NCBI GenBank assembly: GCA_018057825.1
Contig: JAGPCY010000059.1
Location: 1-38,355, forward strand
Length of the DNA stretch: 38,355 nucleotides
From: Kofleriaceae bacterium
GTDB taxonomy: Bacteria; Myxococcota_A; Polyangia; Haliangiales; Haliangiaceae
Direction: 5' to 3'
Below are positions 5,473-38,355 of this stretch, piece by piece. Both the position numbers and the translations under genes were made by a program. The notes beneath the pieces are model-generated. The model was not told where the DNA came from and searched no databases. It was given only the letters and a program-made list of their open reading frames with translations. How positions within the stretch are numbered: the stretch's first letter is position 1; every line of letters begins with the position of its first letter.

Positions 5473-5836
<364 letters not shown>

Positions 5837-5897: not shown

Positions 5898-8675
5898 ATG
5901 TCTGCCCCCGTCCCGGACCCGGTGTCCACCCTCGACCTGAGCCGCTTTCCGGGACGGGTGATCGCCACCCGTACGATCCCGCCGCGCGACGCGACCTACG
6001 CGCCGCTGCCCGACGGCCTGCACCCGGCCCTGCGCGAGACCTTGATCGCGCGCGGGATCGACCGGCTCTACAGCCACCAGGTCGAGGCCTTCGCCGCCGC
6101 CCAGGGCGGCGAGGACGTGGTCGTCACGACGGGCACCGCGAGCGGCAAGTCCCTGGCCTATCTGCTGCCGGTCATCCAGGCGTCCCTCGAGGATCCGGCG
6201 GCGCGGACGCTGCTCCTGTTCCCGACCAAGGCCCTGACCCAGGATCAGCTCCGCGGCGTGGTCGGGCTCATCGATCACCTAGCGACCCGCACCGAGGTCG
6301 CGGCGCCGCGGCTGTCGGCCGGCATCTACGACGGCGACACCCCACCGGCCGAGCGGACCAAGGTCCGCGATCGCGCGCACCTGATCCTGACCAACCCCGA
6401 CATGCTGCACAGCGCGCTCCTGCCCAACCACGGCCGGCGCGGGTTCGCCCACGTGTTTCGCAACGTGCGCTACATCGTGATCGACGAGCTGCACAGCTAC
6501 CGGGGCGCGTTCGGCGCCCACCTCGCCAACCTCGTGCGCCGGCTCCTGCGGGTGTGCGCGCACCACGGCAGCGCGCCGCGGTTCCTGTGCAGCTCGGCGA
6601 CCATCGCCAACGCGCGCGAGCACGCCGAGGCGCTCTGCCACCGGCGGTTCCGCTTGATCGATCGCGACGGCTCGCCGTCGGCGGGCAAGGTCGTGCACTT
6701 CTGGCAACCGCCGATGACCGAGCGCGACACCCGGCGTCCGGTGACCGCCGAGCTGGCCACGCTCCTGCCCCACCTGATCACCGCGCGCCACCGCACGATC
6801 GCCTTTTGCCGCAGCCGCAAGGAGACCGAGATCGTCTTGAAGGAGTCGCGCGATCGCCTGCGCGACGTCGCCGGCCACGACGAGAGCTACCTCCTGGCCG
6901 GCTACCGCGGCGGCTATCTGCCCGAGGAGCGACGCCAGGTCGAGCGCGACCTGGTCGCCGGCCGGCTGTGCGGCGTCGTGTCGACCAACGCCCTCGAGCT
7001 CGGCATCGACATCGGCGCGCTCGAGGTCGTGGTCCAGGGCGGGTTCCCCGGTACGCGCGCGAGCTTCTGGCAACAGCTCGGTCGCGCCGGACGCCGCGAT
7101 CGCCTGGCCCACGCCATCGTCGTCCTGGCGGTCAGCCCGACCGATCAGTTCATCGCCGAGCACCCCGACTGGCTGGTCGGCCAGCCGGCCGAGCACGCGG
7201 TGGTCGATCGCGACAACCTGGCGATCCAGCTCGCCCACGTCCGGGCCGCGGCCGCCGAGCTGCCGCTGGCGCTCGACGACGCCGCGACCTTCCCCGACCT
7301 CGGCGAGATCGTCGGCGTGCTCGAGCGCGCCGGTGAGGTCCGGGCCGCGGCCGGGGCCTGGCACTGGACCGGCGGGTTGTTCCCGGCCGGCGAGGTCAAC
7401 CTGCGCAACCTCCACGACGATCGGTTCAAGGTCGTGAACCGCGCGACGGGCACGACCCTGACCGAGATGAGTCGGCCCCAGGTCTATCGCGAGGCCCACA
7501 CCCGCGCGGTCTACCTCCACGACGGCGTGCAGTATCAGGTCGAGGCCCTCGACCTGGTGCAACACGTCGCCACCGTGACCGCGGTCGAACAGAACTTCTA
7601 CACCCATCCCGACGTGCGCACCGCGATCGAGGTGCTCCTCACCCAGGACCAGCGCGCCGTGGGTCAGACCGAGGCCCGGTTCGGCGACGTCCGGGTCGAC
7701 GACGTCGTCGTCGGGTACAAGATGCTCGAGTTCCACAACCACCAGAACCTCGGCTACGAGGCGCTGCACGAGCACCTGCGGCTGGTACTCGAGACCGAGG
7801 CGGTGTGGGTGACCGTGCCCGAGGTGGTGCTCGCGGTCCTGGGCGGCGAGCGCGAGGACGCCCTGGCCGGCATGGTCCACGCGCTGGGCGCGAGCGCGCG
7901 GCTGCACACCATGGCCGAGCGCTCGGACCTGAACGCGACCAGCCTGCACGTCGCCGACCAGGCGACCGGGCGCACCGCGACCGCGCTGGTCTGCTACGAC
8001 AGCCACCCCGGCGGGCTCGGCTACGCAGCCAAGGCCTTCGAGCGCCTCGACGACGTGCTCGATGCCGCCAGCGGGCTCGTCGAACGCTGCCGCTGTCGGC
8101 GCGGGTGTCCGGCCTGCGTCGGGAGCTGGGCGCGCGACCGGGCGCTGATCGGCTGGGCGCTGCGGCGACTGCGCGCGCTGGTGCCGGCGCCGAGCGACGC
8201 GCCGAGCGACGCGCCGACCGAGGGGACCCTGGCACCGGTGGTGCGCCTGCCGGTGCCGCGGATCCCGTGGCGTGAGGTCGAGGCGCGGTGGGACGAGCTG
8301 GTGGCGCGGCTGCGGGCGGTGCAGCTCGACGGCGCCGAGCTCCTCGCGCGGCTGCCGGCGGCCGAGCGGCGCGGCGCTCGCCTGATCGTGCGGGTGCCGA
8401 GCCTGGGCCTGGCCGAGTGGCTGGGCCGGGACGACGCCCAGCGCCGGCTCTGGCAGGCGATCGCCGCCGAGGTCGACGCCCCGCCCGACGGCGGCCTGGC
8501 GATCGAGGTCGATCCCGCGGCCCGCGAGCGCGCCCTCGTCATCGCCGGCAAGCTGCAGCGACGTCACGACGATCTGATCGCCGACCGCGCCGACAGCGAG
8601 CGCGCGGCCAGCGCCAAGCTCGCGAGCGGCTACGTCCTGGCCGACGCCGGCCCGCGACCGGAGCCACAGCCGTGA
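5898..8675 (+). CDS. MrfA/YprA-like DEAD-box helicase with DUF1998-type Cys cluster and C-terminal extension
   Basis: 925 residues. A superfamily 2 DNA helicase: Walker A TGTASGKS (78-85), FPTKAL (motif Ia), DELH (196-199, motif II), SSAT (motif III), a second RecA-like domain with STNALELGIDIG and QQLGRAGRRD (motifs V and VI). The C-terminal region has the four-cysteine cluster C731-x-C733-x3-C737-x2-C740 expected of the MrfA/DUF1998 zinc site. Bacillus MrfA is a 3'-5' helicase in mitomycin-lesion repair; DUF1998 also occurs in the DISARM protein DrmB. Beyond the cluster about 165 residues form a helical, charged extension that I cannot assign and that exceeds the usual family length. First gene of a three-gene unit; its stop overlaps the GTG of the next gene (GTGA). 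The start is set by the AGGA at 5885. Confidence 0.9.
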   Translation: MSAPVPDPVSTLDLSRFPGRVIATRTIPPRDATYAPLPDGLHPALRETLIARGIDRLYSHQVEAFAAAQGGEDVVVTTGTASGKSLAYLLPVIQASLEDPAARTLLLFPTKALTQDQLRGVVGLIDHLATRTEVAAPRLSAGIYDGDTPPAERTKVRDRAHLILTNPDMLHSALLPNHGRRGFAHVFRNVRYIVIDELHSYRGAFGAHLANLVRRLLRVCAHHGSAPRFLCSSATIANAREHAEALCHRRFRLIDRDGSPSAGKVVHFWQPPMTERDTRRPVTAELATLLPHLITARHRTIAFCRSRKETEIVLKESRDRLRDVAGHDESYLLAGYRGGYLPEERRQVERDLVAGRLCGVVSTNALELGIDIGALEVVVQGGFPGTRASFWQQLGRAGRRDRLAHAIVVLAVSPTDQFIAEHPDWLVGQPAEHAVVDRDNLAIQLAHVRAAAAELPLALDDAATFPDLGEIVGVLERAGEVRAAAGAWHWTGGLFPAGEVNLRNLHDDRFKVVNRATGTTLTEMSRPQVYREAHTRAVYLHDGVQYQVEALDLVQHVATVTAVEQNFYTHPDVRTAIEVLLTQDQRAVGQTEARFGDVRVDDVVVGYKMLEFHNHQNLGYEALHEHLRLVLETEAVWVTVPEVVLAVLGGEREDALAGMVHALGASARLHTMAERSDLNATSLHVADQATGRTATALVCYDSHPGGLGYAAKAFERLDDVLDAASGLVERCRCRRGCPACVGSWARDRALIGWALRRLRALVPAPSDAPSDAPTEGTLAPVVRLPVPRIPWREVEARWDELVARLRAVQLDGAELLARLPAAERRGARLIVRVPSLGLAEWLGRDDAQRRLWQAIAAEVDAPPDGGLAIEVDPAARERALVIAGKLQRRHDDLIADRADSERAASAKLASGYVLADAGPRPEPQP

Positions 8676-10507
8676 CCGCCGGCACCTGGCAGCGCCTGAC
8701 GCGGGCGCTCCGCGACGACCGACGGGGCGCGCCGGCCACCGGGCTCCTCGCCCCCGGCGTGGTCGAGGCCGCGCCGGCGCCACCGGTGGAGCTGCCCGCG
8801 GCGGCGATCGATCCGGCCGAGGTGGCGGCGCGGGTGGCGGCGGTGGCCGCGCTCGATCCGCGGCTCCACGCGCGGCTGGTCGCGCTCGATCCCGACCAGC
8901 AGGCCGCGGTGGTGACCGACGCGCCGGCGGCCCTGGTGCGGGCCGCGGTCGGCAGCGGCAAGACCACCGTGCTGCTCCATCGCGCGGCCTTCCTGCACCG
9001 GGTCGTCGGGGTGCCGCTCGAGGACCTGGCGATCCTGACCTTCACGACCCAGGCGGCCCAGGCGCTGCGAGTCCGCCTCGACGAGCTGCTCGAGCGAGCG
9101 ACCAGCGCGCGCGAGCGTCGGCTGCACGGGACCTTCCACGCCGTCGCGCTGGCGCTCCTCGAGGGTGGGCTGCCGCTCGACCAGCTCGATCGCCGGCCCG
9201 GGCTGACCGTCCTCGACGACGACGCGGTCGCCGCGCTCCTCGATGAGCTGGCGGTGGCGCACCGCCTGCGGGTCGGCCCGCGGCGGCGCCTGCGCGAGCG
9301 CCTGCGGGCGGCGCCTCCGACCGGCGCGCTGGCTGAGCTGGGGCGCCTCTTCGCCGACGCCAAGCGGGCGCACAACGCCATGGAGTTCGACGATCTGATC
9401 GAGGCCGCCACCGCGCTCCTGGCCGGCCCGGGCGGCGCTCGACCGCGCTGGATCTTGATCGACGAGCTCCAGGACTGCGAGCCGCGCGAGCTCGCGCTGG
9501 TGCAGGGGCTGCGCGGGCCGACCGGCGGCGTGTTCGGCGTCGGCGATCCGTGCCAGGCGATCTACGGCTGGCGCGGCGGCGTGGCCGACGGCTTCGCCCG
9601 GGCCGCGGCGACCTTGGGCTGCGTCGTCCACCACCTGCCGACCAGCTACCGCAGCACCCGCACGATCCTCGACGGCGCGGCCGCGGTGCTCGGCGATCAA
9701 CCGATCGCGACTGGCGAGCTGCGGGCGGCGCGACCGGCCGGCTCGCCGATCGCCGTGCGCCGCCACCACGATCCGATCGCCGAGGCGACCTACCTGGCGG
9801 CGCGCCTGACCGAGCTCCACGCCGCCGGCGTCCCGCGCTCGGCGCTGGCGGTCCTGGCCCGGCTGCGCGCCCAGGTCGACGCGTTGGTCGCGGCGCTGAC
9901 CGCGGCCGGGGTGCCGTGCCTCGGCGAGCTGCGCGACGGCGCGCCGCCGGTCGACGATCCCACCGACGCGGTTCGGGTGATGACCCTCCACGCCGCCAAG
10001 GGCCTGCAGTTCACCCACGTCTTCGTCGCCGGCGCCAACCTCGGGATCTTGCCGCTGGTCCTGCGCGATCGCGGCGAGGACGAGGCCGAGGAGCGCCGGC
10101 TCCTGTTCGTCGGCCTGACCCGCGCCACCGAGACCGTCGAGGTGTCGTACGTGGCGTGCCCCCACCAGTTCGGCGCCCTGGGCGCGCCGAGCCCGCTTCT
10201 GTACTTGCTGCCGGCGGCGACCGTGGCGTGGGACGAGGCCCCGCGTGGGGCGAGCGCGACGGGCGCGACGACCGCGACGATGACGGCCGCGACGGAGACG
10301 GCCGCGACGGAGACGGCCGCGACGGTGACGGCCTCCGACGACGCCCTGCCCTGGCGAGTCGGCCAGGCGGTCCACCATCGCCGCTACGGCCAGGGGGTCG
10401 TGCGCGCGCTCGGCGACGGCGAGGTGCGCTGCGAGTTCGGCCCGTGGGGCGAGCGAGCCTTCCCGCTGGCGCTGTGCCCCTTGACCCCGGCGCCGGACGC
10501 GCCGTGA
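8672..10507 (+). CDS. Compact UvrD/PcrA-like superfamily 1 helicase
   Basis: 611 residues, shorter than UvrD or PcrA (about 720). Motif I is GSGKT (94-98), Ia LTFTTQAAQALR, Q-motif-like ALDPDQQAAV (71-80), EFDDLI ahead of motif II, DELQD (264-268), GDPCQAIYGWRG (291-302), YRSTRT (326-331), TLHAAKGLQF (438-447) and GLTRAT (481-486). All catalytic motifs are therefore present, and it should be an active ATP-dependent 3'-5' DNA translocase. The 2B region is reduced. After an Ala/Thr linker encoded by a 15-bp tandem repeat, residues about 558-600 (WRVGQAVHHRRYGQGVV) resemble the Tudor-like C-terminus of PcrA/UvrD that contacts RNA polymerase. The GTG start overlaps the preceding stop (GTGA) and its own stop overlaps the following GTG. 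It probably works with both neighbours (inference). Confidence 0.9.
   Translation: MTAGTWQRLTRALRDDRRGAPATGLLAPGVVEAAPAPPVELPAAAIDPAEVAARVAAVAALDPRLHARLVALDPDQQAAVVTDAPAALVRAAVGSGKTTVLLHRAAFLHRVVGVPLEDLAILTFTTQAAQALRVRLDELLERATSARERRLHGTFHAVALALLEGGLPLDQLDRRPGLTVLDDDAVAALLDELAVAHRLRVGPRRRLRERLRAAPPTGALAELGRLFADAKRAHNAMEFDDLIEAATALLAGPGGARPRWILIDELQDCEPRELALVQGLRGPTGGVFGVGDPCQAIYGWRGGVADGFARAAATLGCVVHHLPTSYRSTRTILDGAAAVLGDQPIATGELRAARPAGSPIAVRRHHDPIAEATYLAARLTELHAAGVPRSALAVLARLRAQVDALVAALTAAGVPCLGELRDGAPPVDDPTDAVRVMTLHAAKGLQFTHVFVAGANLGILPLVLRDRGEDEAEERRLLFVGLTRATETVEVSYVACPHQFGALGAPSPLLYLLPAATVAWDEAPRGASATGATTATMTAATETAATETAATVTASDDALPWRVGQAVHHRRYGQGVVRALGDGEVRCEFGPWGERAFPLALCPLTPAPDAP
10282..10326 (+). 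repeat. 15-bp minisatellite in the helicase linker
   Basis: Three tandem copies of the 15-base unit GACGGCCGCGACGGA (the last differs in its final base) encode a five-residue Ala/Ala/Thr/Glu/Thr repeat. They lie between the helicase core and the Tudor-like C-terminal domain of the UvrD-like protein. The length is a multiple of three, so copy-number change would keep the frame and only alter linker length. Confidence 0.85.
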
Positions 10508-11190
10508 GCTGGGCCTGGTACCTCGGCGACCTCGCCGATCACCTGGCGCGCGCCGTCGCCGAGCTCGAGGCCGGCCTGACCCTCGAGCAGGCCCCCCACG
10601 GCCTCGACACCTGGGACGAGACCGCGCTCCAGCAGGCGTTCGCCGCCGCCCTGGCCCGCGATCATGAGATCGCCCGCGAGGTCCACTACCCGTCGACCGC
10701 CGGGCGCAAGCGCAGTCACCGCGCGCGCTGCGATCTGGTCGTGACCCCGGCCGGCGCGCCGCTGTCGCGCGGCGAGCCCTTGCCCGGCCTGTGCCCGCCC
10801 GAGCAGGCGCTGTGGCTCGAACTCAAGGTCGCGCGCCGGCGACGCCCGGGCGGCGGCCGCGACGGCCGGTATCGCGGCCAGTGGCAGCGCCACCTGGTCG
10901 CCGATCTGCAGAAGCTCGCGGCCGAGCCCGCGATCCGCGACGCCGCGCTGGTGGTCGCGGTCTTCGCCGAGGACGAAGCCGGGCTCCACCGCGATCTCGA
11001 CAGCTTCGAGTCGATCCTGATCCGCCACGACGTCCTGGCCGGCTTCCGCGTCGTGCGCACCGTGGCGATCGCCGATCGGCTCGGTCACACCACCTGCGGC
11101 ATCGCGCTGTGGCCGACCGTGCAGCGGGGGACGACGGACGCCGAGCCGCCCTCGGCCCTGCCGTCCTGGTCGTCCGGGTGGCCTGGCTAG
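10504..11190 (+). CDS. Predicted PD-(D/E)XK-type nuclease, third gene of the helicase cassette
   Basis: 228 residues. I do not recognise a named family. The fold signature of PD-(D/E)XK nucleases can be read: an acidic residue in the first helix (E55 or E59), D77 in the strand RCDLVV, then E106-x-K108 in LWLELKVA, followed by a helix with D134-x-x-K137 in LVADLQKLA. Spacing and order fit the metal-binding core, and the ARCDLVV strand is typical. It starts at GTG 10504, overlapping the UvrD-like stop by GTGA, so its dosage is tied to the two helicases. The parallel with AddB/RecB, where a UvrD motor works with such a nuclease, suggests end processing or cleavage of unwound DNA. The function is inferred from motif and context only. 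Confidence 0.65.
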   Translation: MSWAWYLGDLADHLARAVAELEAGLTLEQAPHGLDTWDETALQQAFAAALARDHEIAREVHYPSTAGRKRSHRARCDLVVTPAGAPLSRGEPLPGLCPPEQALWLELKVARRRRPGGGRDGRYRGQWQRHLVADLQKLAAEPAIRDAALVVAVFAEDEAGLHRDLDSFESILIRHDVLAGFRVVRTVAIADRLGHTTCGIALWPTVQRGTTDAEPPSALPSWSSGWPG

Positions 11191-38142: not shown

Positions 38143-38182
38143 GCGCCGGCACTGTACCGCTGTCGGCCCGGCTTGGCCGGCC

Positions 38183-38355
<173 letters not shown>

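Follow-up and report, generated by a model that had tools for sequence, protein, structure and literature searches.

A three-gene unit of two helicases and a putative nuclease

We analysed a 38,355-nucleotide stretch of DNA from a Kofleriaceae bacterium (GenBank assembly GCA_018057825.1, contig JAGPCY010000059.1, positions 1 to 38,355 of the forward strand; hereafter the window), in which an MrfA-like helicase with an extended C-terminus, a UvrD-like helicase and a small putative nuclease are encoded side by side. These three genes (hereafter the trio), which belong to uncultured Myxococcota, constitute a previously undescribed unit that probably clears damaged DNA. The genes and their junctions are as follows.

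5898-8675, + strand: gene 1, 925 amino acids, MrfA/YprA-like superfamily 2 (SF2) helicase; domains DEAD, Helicase_C and MZB (DUF1998), plus an extra C-terminal region
8672-8675, + strand: four-base GTGA stop/start overlap from gene 1 to gene 2; same type at loci L019, L020, L022, L123 and L137
8672-10507, + strand: gene 2, 611 amino acids, UvrD-like superfamily 1A (SF1A) helicase of the subfamily that accompanies extended MrfA
10504-10507, + strand: four-base GTGA stop/start overlap from gene 2 to gene 3; NTGA type at homologous loci
10504-11190, + strand: gene 3, 228 amino acids, putative nuclease of the PD-(D/E)XK type

In relatives of the trio, the junctions are in nearly all cases NTGA overlaps or a one-base equivalent, and by this arrangement the three genes form a unit that is made together. 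A preliminary description of this DNA had pointed to the three same-strand genes and their two GTGA overlaps, to an SF2 motor with a DUF1998-type Cys4 cluster, to a UvrD-type superfamily 1 (SF1) motor and to residues D77, E106 and K108 of the third protein, and each of these observations stands. Its overall reading, a new DNA-processing unit, also holds, but it had missed the KH-like domain of gene 1, the absence of the 2B subdomain from gene 2 and the MrfA-UvrD pair at the core of the unit.

A repair-type MrfA with a C-terminal extension

The product of gene 1 aligns to the solved structure of MrfA/YprA (6znp) with an E-value of 3e-162, its residues 21-743 matching residues 21-732 of MrfA. 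These near-equal spans indicate that it does not carry the large inserted domain of the defence branch of the family. Its profile scores were 545 bits for MrfA, end to end, and 632 bits for TIGR03817, against 147 bits for the best anti-phage profile. A survey of about 52,000 YprA-family helicases distinguishes a repair branch, found with no conserved context or with MrfB, from a defence branch that comprises DISARM, Dpd, Druantia, ARMADA, BRIGADE and TALON (PMC12458937). Placed by alignment and profile scores, gene 1 is a member of the YprA/MrfA family in its repair branch. The following features were located in its coding sequence.

7878-8120, + strand: MZB (MrfA zinc-binding) domain with the Cys4 cluster (CxC...CxxC); profile match of 60.7 bits
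8256-8639, + strand: C-terminal extension, with a KH-like domain (about 8265-8516) followed by a helix, placed by alignments, model and fold comparison
8550-8576, + strand: KLQRRHDDL codons, the most conserved motif of the extension in alignments

MrfA has no counterpart to the residues of gene 1 after about 743. The extension that occupies them is conserved in the trio genomes, in genome G368, in many genomes of f29 (a family of another class) and in one Planctomycetota metagenome-assembled genome (MAG), and it had no match in the family libraries. Its model has a predicted local distance difference test score (pLDDT) >90 across the KH-like domain. Foldseek ranked DnaA domain I first (probability 0.99, E 0.01); its nine best matches also included DciA and the C-terminal domain of the DNA polymerase III tau subunit (tau domain V). 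With VIA, DnaA domain I (4tps) gave the best Z score of 7.4 (root-mean-square deviation (rmsd) 2.8, 78/82 residues aligned), and many further rows were ribosomal proteins. Because KH-like folds are common and ribosomal rows so numerous, we read this likeness as one of fold only, short of established homology: the extension carries a predicted KH-like domain similar in shape to domain I of DnaA, to DciA and to domain V of tau.

We dropped a link between the KLQRRHDDL motif and the adjacency of a UvrD gene. Three genomes of genus g122 with no adjacent UvrD gene read RRRLED, but they belong to a single genus and two of them keep a UvrD gene elsewhere. Separately, the C-terminus of many extended MrfAs of f29 (for instance at L072, L079 and L080) is a conserved GDGSVN/GDxSIN tail, missing from the trio genomes, which could be a short binding peptide.

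A UvrD-like partner without a 2B subdomain

Gene 2 matches the N- and C-terminal helicase domains of UvrD and contains the SF1 motifs. It scored 189 bits against UvrD/PcrA and 140 bits against GajB profiles. Identity reaches 42-53% to the UvrDs encoded beside extended MrfA in other Myxococcota and 39% to the copy of the Planctomycetota MAG, against 33% to the UvrD/Rep-type housekeeping proteins of its own genome. By these comparisons gene 2 represents a distinct UvrD subfamily, the partner of extended MrfA. We could rule out that it is the only UvrD of the genome, which holds two closer UvrD/Rep-type genes and a RecB-like gene. Two features of the protein deserve description.

9917-9973, + strand: site of the missing 2B subdomain, between about residues 416 and 434, from alignment with 2B-bearing relatives and with the genome's own UvrD/Rep-type proteins
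10352-10483, + strand: Tudor-like C-terminal segment as in PcrA/UvrD; UvrD and PcrA profiles match through their C-termini

The preliminary description had called this helicase compact. Alignment refines the point: what is missing is the 2B subdomain, whose roughly 150-200 residues are lacking from all UvrD copies of the trio. The 2B subdomain is present in the f29 copies, in the copy of G368 and in housekeeping UvrDs; the copies at L137 and at the Planctomycetota locus L154 are also compact. We take the absence of 2B in the trio UvrDs as a derived loss within the UvrD/Rep/PcrA family. To our knowledge, UvrD helicases without 2B have so far been known mainly as engineered proteins, and the trio supplies natural ones. 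Once 2B is deleted, Rep monomers become active in unwinding, and the displacement of bound proteins by Rep is impaired (PMC6158625).

A small candidate nuclease family

The third gene had no family match in Pfam, NCBIfam, PHROGs or PDB sequences by direct and profile searches. It is under purifying selection, with a nonsynonymous divergence (dN) of about 0.13 against a synonymous divergence (dS) of about 0.48-0.53. The motif that had drawn attention to it lies at two sites.

10732-10734, + strand: D77 codon, at the start of predicted strand 2; invariant
10819-10827, + strand: E106-x-K108 codons, in predicted strand 3; invariant

Together with E39 and E59, these three residues are invariant in the gene 3 alignment (6 sequences). 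A comparison of the predicted structure with PD-(D/E)XK folds, which had been proposed as a check, gave a mixed outcome. The AlphaFold model (pLDDT 74.6) has the expected layout, an alpha-beta-beta-beta-alpha-beta core, but Foldseek returned no significant match, with methyltransferase rows ranking beside nucleases. On VIA re-alignment EcoRV came first (Z 7.1, rmsd 4.6, 133 residues) and SwaI second, with Cas4, PspGI, HincII, SfsA and BstEII in lower rows; no more than 1 Z unit separated the restriction enzymes from unrelated methyltransferases and IF3. As the fold matches are not significant, it is chiefly the conserved motif, and where it sits in the model, that supports the superfamily assignment, and we regard gene 3 as a putative PD-(D/E)XK-type nuclease and as a new small candidate nuclease family. 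The missing family match, the lack of a significant Foldseek match and the closeness of methyltransferases and IF3 to the nucleases would suit a structural or DNA-binding protein that merely resembles this fold. We nevertheless think such a role very unlikely, since an aspartate at the start of strand 2 and an E-x-K in strand 3, arranged as in PD-(D/E)XK enzymes, are kept in all homologues and since restriction enzymes lead the VIA rows.

No copy of gene 3 turned up in 50,697 records of phages and 72,556 of plasmids, and a contig scan with gene 3 alone returned 222 pattern matches and 0 relatives. Weak matches in genomes G247 and G203 were rejected as chance, their loci being devoid of MrfA or UvrD relatives. 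A second, truncated copy is present in G002, away from the trio (L025, about 1619-1801 on G002:C47). It corresponds to the C-terminal third of the 228-residue protein and is 66% identical.

Distribution of the trio and its conserved core

Gene 3 has relatives in five further genomes of the same genus (G001, G002, G003, G004 and G006) and in G011, from another genus of the family. The full trio is present in the same order in G002, G003, G004 and G011; in G001 and G006 it is split by contig ends, with its parts in matching positions. Flanking genes differ among the window's genome (G000), G002, G003, G004 and G011 and the trio is intact in each. A chance association confined to one genome, which the preliminary description had named as one finding that would overturn its reading, is thus not what we see. 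Across the 379 Myxococcota genomes sampled, gene 3 is confined to the source genus, plus a broken remnant in G368. This remnant (L033, 4535-4771 on G368:C6) is decayed, contains stops and lies on the opposite strand, just upstream of an extended MrfA, which suggests that family f23, too, once had the nuclease. The neighbours of the trio are ordinary chromosomal genes, and no methylase, defence gene or integrase was found among those examined.

The partnership of the two helicases is wider. In the same sample, extended MrfA was found in 24 genomes and the UvrD subfamily in 22, using a cut-off of at least 495 bits for the latter; two further genomes, with scores of 372-375 bits, were not counted because housekeeping proteins score almost as high (up to 337 bits). 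Of the 379 genomes, 21 had both genes, 3 had only extended MrfA, 1 had only UvrD and 354 had neither (Fisher p about 3e-30), and counting by genus gave 9, 2, 1 and 224 respectively (p about 1e-13), p-values that are inflated by relatedness, as most genomes come from f29. Two of the three genomes with extended MrfA only (G154 and G328) have contigs that stop shortly after the gene, and in the genome with UvrD only the gene lies at a contig end. In G069, G107 and G143 both genes are present on different contigs. The correlation between MrfA and UvrD distances (r 0.82) was not used as proof, as it largely reflects shared phylogeny.

In sister families, G031 and G034 encode a canonical MrfA directly followed by MrfB; this MrfA has no extension and the UvrD subfamily is absent. 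No match to the MrfB family above 45 bits was found in the window's genome. The pair was found in f1, f23, f29 and the Planctomycetota MAG, and from these comparisons the conserved core is the partnership of extended MrfA with its dedicated UvrD. A repair-type YprA helicase thereby has a different, phylogenetically consistent partner and an unreported C-terminal domain, and the pair offers a handle on the role of MrfA when MrfB is absent.

The nuclease is not essential to this pair, which is found without it at L137, at L154 and in f29. We therefore rejected the idea that it belonged to the ancestral unit; on this distribution it is a lineage-restricted addition outside the shared core. The trio proposed in the preliminary description is thus a unit in that its genes are made together, but its conserved heart is the MrfA-UvrD pair and the nuclease is a local addition.

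Two variants of the pair were observed. At L072 (7011-8165, f29 genus g87) a patatin-like gene lies between the extended MrfA and UvrD genes, and gaps of similar size at L071, L073 and L075 suggest the same insertion. In the Planctomycetota MAG HyVt-576 (L154, 327-4764), an extended MrfA and a UvrD without 2B overlap by 44 bases; this pair reflects either horizontal transfer or a misbinned contig.

Comparison with known systems

As the preliminary description had it, the trio matches no named system, judged by a defence-profile search and by the main text of the YprA survey, which makes no mention of an extended MrfA with UvrD (PMC12458937). We also found no description of a MrfA-UvrD(-nuclease) combination in the open-access literature. 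Among the closest known systems is MrfAB (YprAB) of Bacillus subtilis, described as a helicase-exonuclease pair that acts on mitomycin adducts independently of UvrABC (PMC11194089); its alleles are reported to be specific to the species (PMC12458937). Gene 1 is MrfA-type over its first 743 residues and a putative nuclease follows in the operon, but there is no adjacent MrfB: downstream lie a UvrD-like gene and that of the 228-residue protein. The trio thus has a UvrD-type second motor, a KH-like tail on MrfA and a PD-(D/E)XK-type protein where MrfAB has a DEDD exonuclease.

AddAB and RecBCD also combine a UvrD-like motor with a PD-(D/E)XK nuclease. This parallel, drawn earlier for this locus, is loose: here the putative nuclease is encoded apart, as a small protein of its own, gene 2 ends after its Tudor-like segment, an SF2 helicase serves as second motor, and separate RecB- and RecC-like genes are present on contig C72 of the same genome. 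With UvrD, PcrA and Rep, gene 2 shares the SF1 motifs and the Tudor-like C-terminus; it differs in being a distinct subfamily with no 2B. The GajB match of gene 2 recalls Gabija, but no GajA OLD/TOPRIM nuclease is present among the neighbours of the trio, and the UvrD/PcrA scores are higher.

Among defence systems, ARMADA type II also places a YprA-family and a UvrD-family (GajB-like) helicase in one operon, according to the survey (PMC12458937). Neither a BrxHII-like helicase nor a PglX methyltransferase lies among the neighbours of the trio, its UvrD carries no RelE domain and its YprA no C-terminal Vsr nuclease, the C-terminal domain of gene 1 being modelled as KH-like instead. TALON resembles the trio in pairing a YprA-family helicase with a separate PD-(D/E)xK nuclease, and some BRIGADE systems also pair YprA with such nucleases (PMC12458937). 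TALON differs in lacking a UvrD and in having a TPR-cold-shock (TPR-CSD) protein, a TATA-binding protein and a nuclease of the NERD type, to which gene 3 showed no match. In DISARM, the helicase (DrmA) and DUF1998 (DrmB) are on separate proteins, and both are on the gene 1 product here.

The main rival explanation follows from these precedents: the trio would serve anti-phage defence or restriction, tracking along foreign DNA and cutting it in the manner of DISARM, ARMADA and TALON. Several defence systems are anchored by YprA helicases, both ARMADA type II with its UvrD and TALON with its PD-(D/E)xK nuclease among them (PMC12458937), and the trio is patchy within the genus, with flanks that differ from genome to genome. 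However, gene 1 matches MrfA over its full length and no defence profile exceeds 147 bits, and the MrfA-UvrD pair follows the lineage across 12 genera, not mobile elements. Defence is made less likely by the repair-type helicase, the ordinary neighbours, with no methylase, defence gene or integrase among those examined, and the absence of phage or plasmid matches, and we judge it unlikely.

Proposed function

Weighed between repair, resection and restriction, the evidence leans toward repair. We give about an even chance to the trio being a chromosomal DNA-repair unit, a two-motor variant of MrfAB-type lesion repair with the nuclease in MrfB's place; repair is here what we infer. MrfA would open the DNA at a lesion (MrfA and UvrD both belong to 3'-5' families). 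The KH-like tail would dock the UvrD-like motor, by analogy with DnaA and DciA, whose similar domains act on DnaB, and this motor, without 2B, would strip the strand free of the usual 2B autoinhibition. The gene 3 nuclease would incise or trim the displaced strand, and together with the second motor it would take over the role of the DEDD exonuclease MrfB. Tentatively, and by the same analogy, the KH-like tail could be a motor-docking module that brings a permanently active UvrD without 2B onto MrfA at lesions, making a repair machine with motors of two superfamilies, extended in one lineage by a nuclease of its own; we put this forward as a speculative possibility.

Several points weigh against this repair reading. 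The fold matches of both modelled domains are not secure by themselves (Foldseek E at least 0.01; VIA Z 7.1-7.4), and both docking by the KH-like domain and contact between the trio proteins are conjectural. The changing flanks of the trio would also suit a mobile module, and the nuclease is absent next to the pair at the loci named above. Finally, in one trio genome (L022) the UvrD is without the Tudor segment and the N-terminal helix.

The two domains at issue could also point to an accessory of replication or transcription, in which MrfA would be brought to the replisome by its KH-like domain, or the Tudor segment of UvrD would make the link to RNA polymerase, the motors would clear conflicts and the nuclease would process stalled forks or R-loops. 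The resemblance of the KH-like domain to replication-initiation and clamp-loader modules fits this role, as does the binding of RNA polymerase and UvrB by the PcrA Tudor domain (PMC8318588). We consider it improbable nonetheless: the Tudor segment is not universal in the trio proteins, as L022 shows, KH-like folds are common with many fold rows being ribosomal proteins, and removal of 2B impairs protein displacement by Rep (PMC6158625), the opposite of what the clearance of roadblocks would need.

Additional observations

Elsewhere in the same genome (L131, 3358-9238 on G000:C65), a large gene, a 581-residue gene with an MZB match and a 247-residue gene lie in a row. This is possibly a DISARM drmA-drmB-drmC set; the analysis of it covered the MZB match.

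Hexanucleotide tandem arrays (GACCGA, TCGGGT/TCGGTC and CCGAGA) are found in the window at 1-142, 5495-5834 and 38181-38355. The array at 5495-5834 closely precedes the trio, and the remaining arrays mark the two ends of the contig, so that the assembly probably broke at such repeats.

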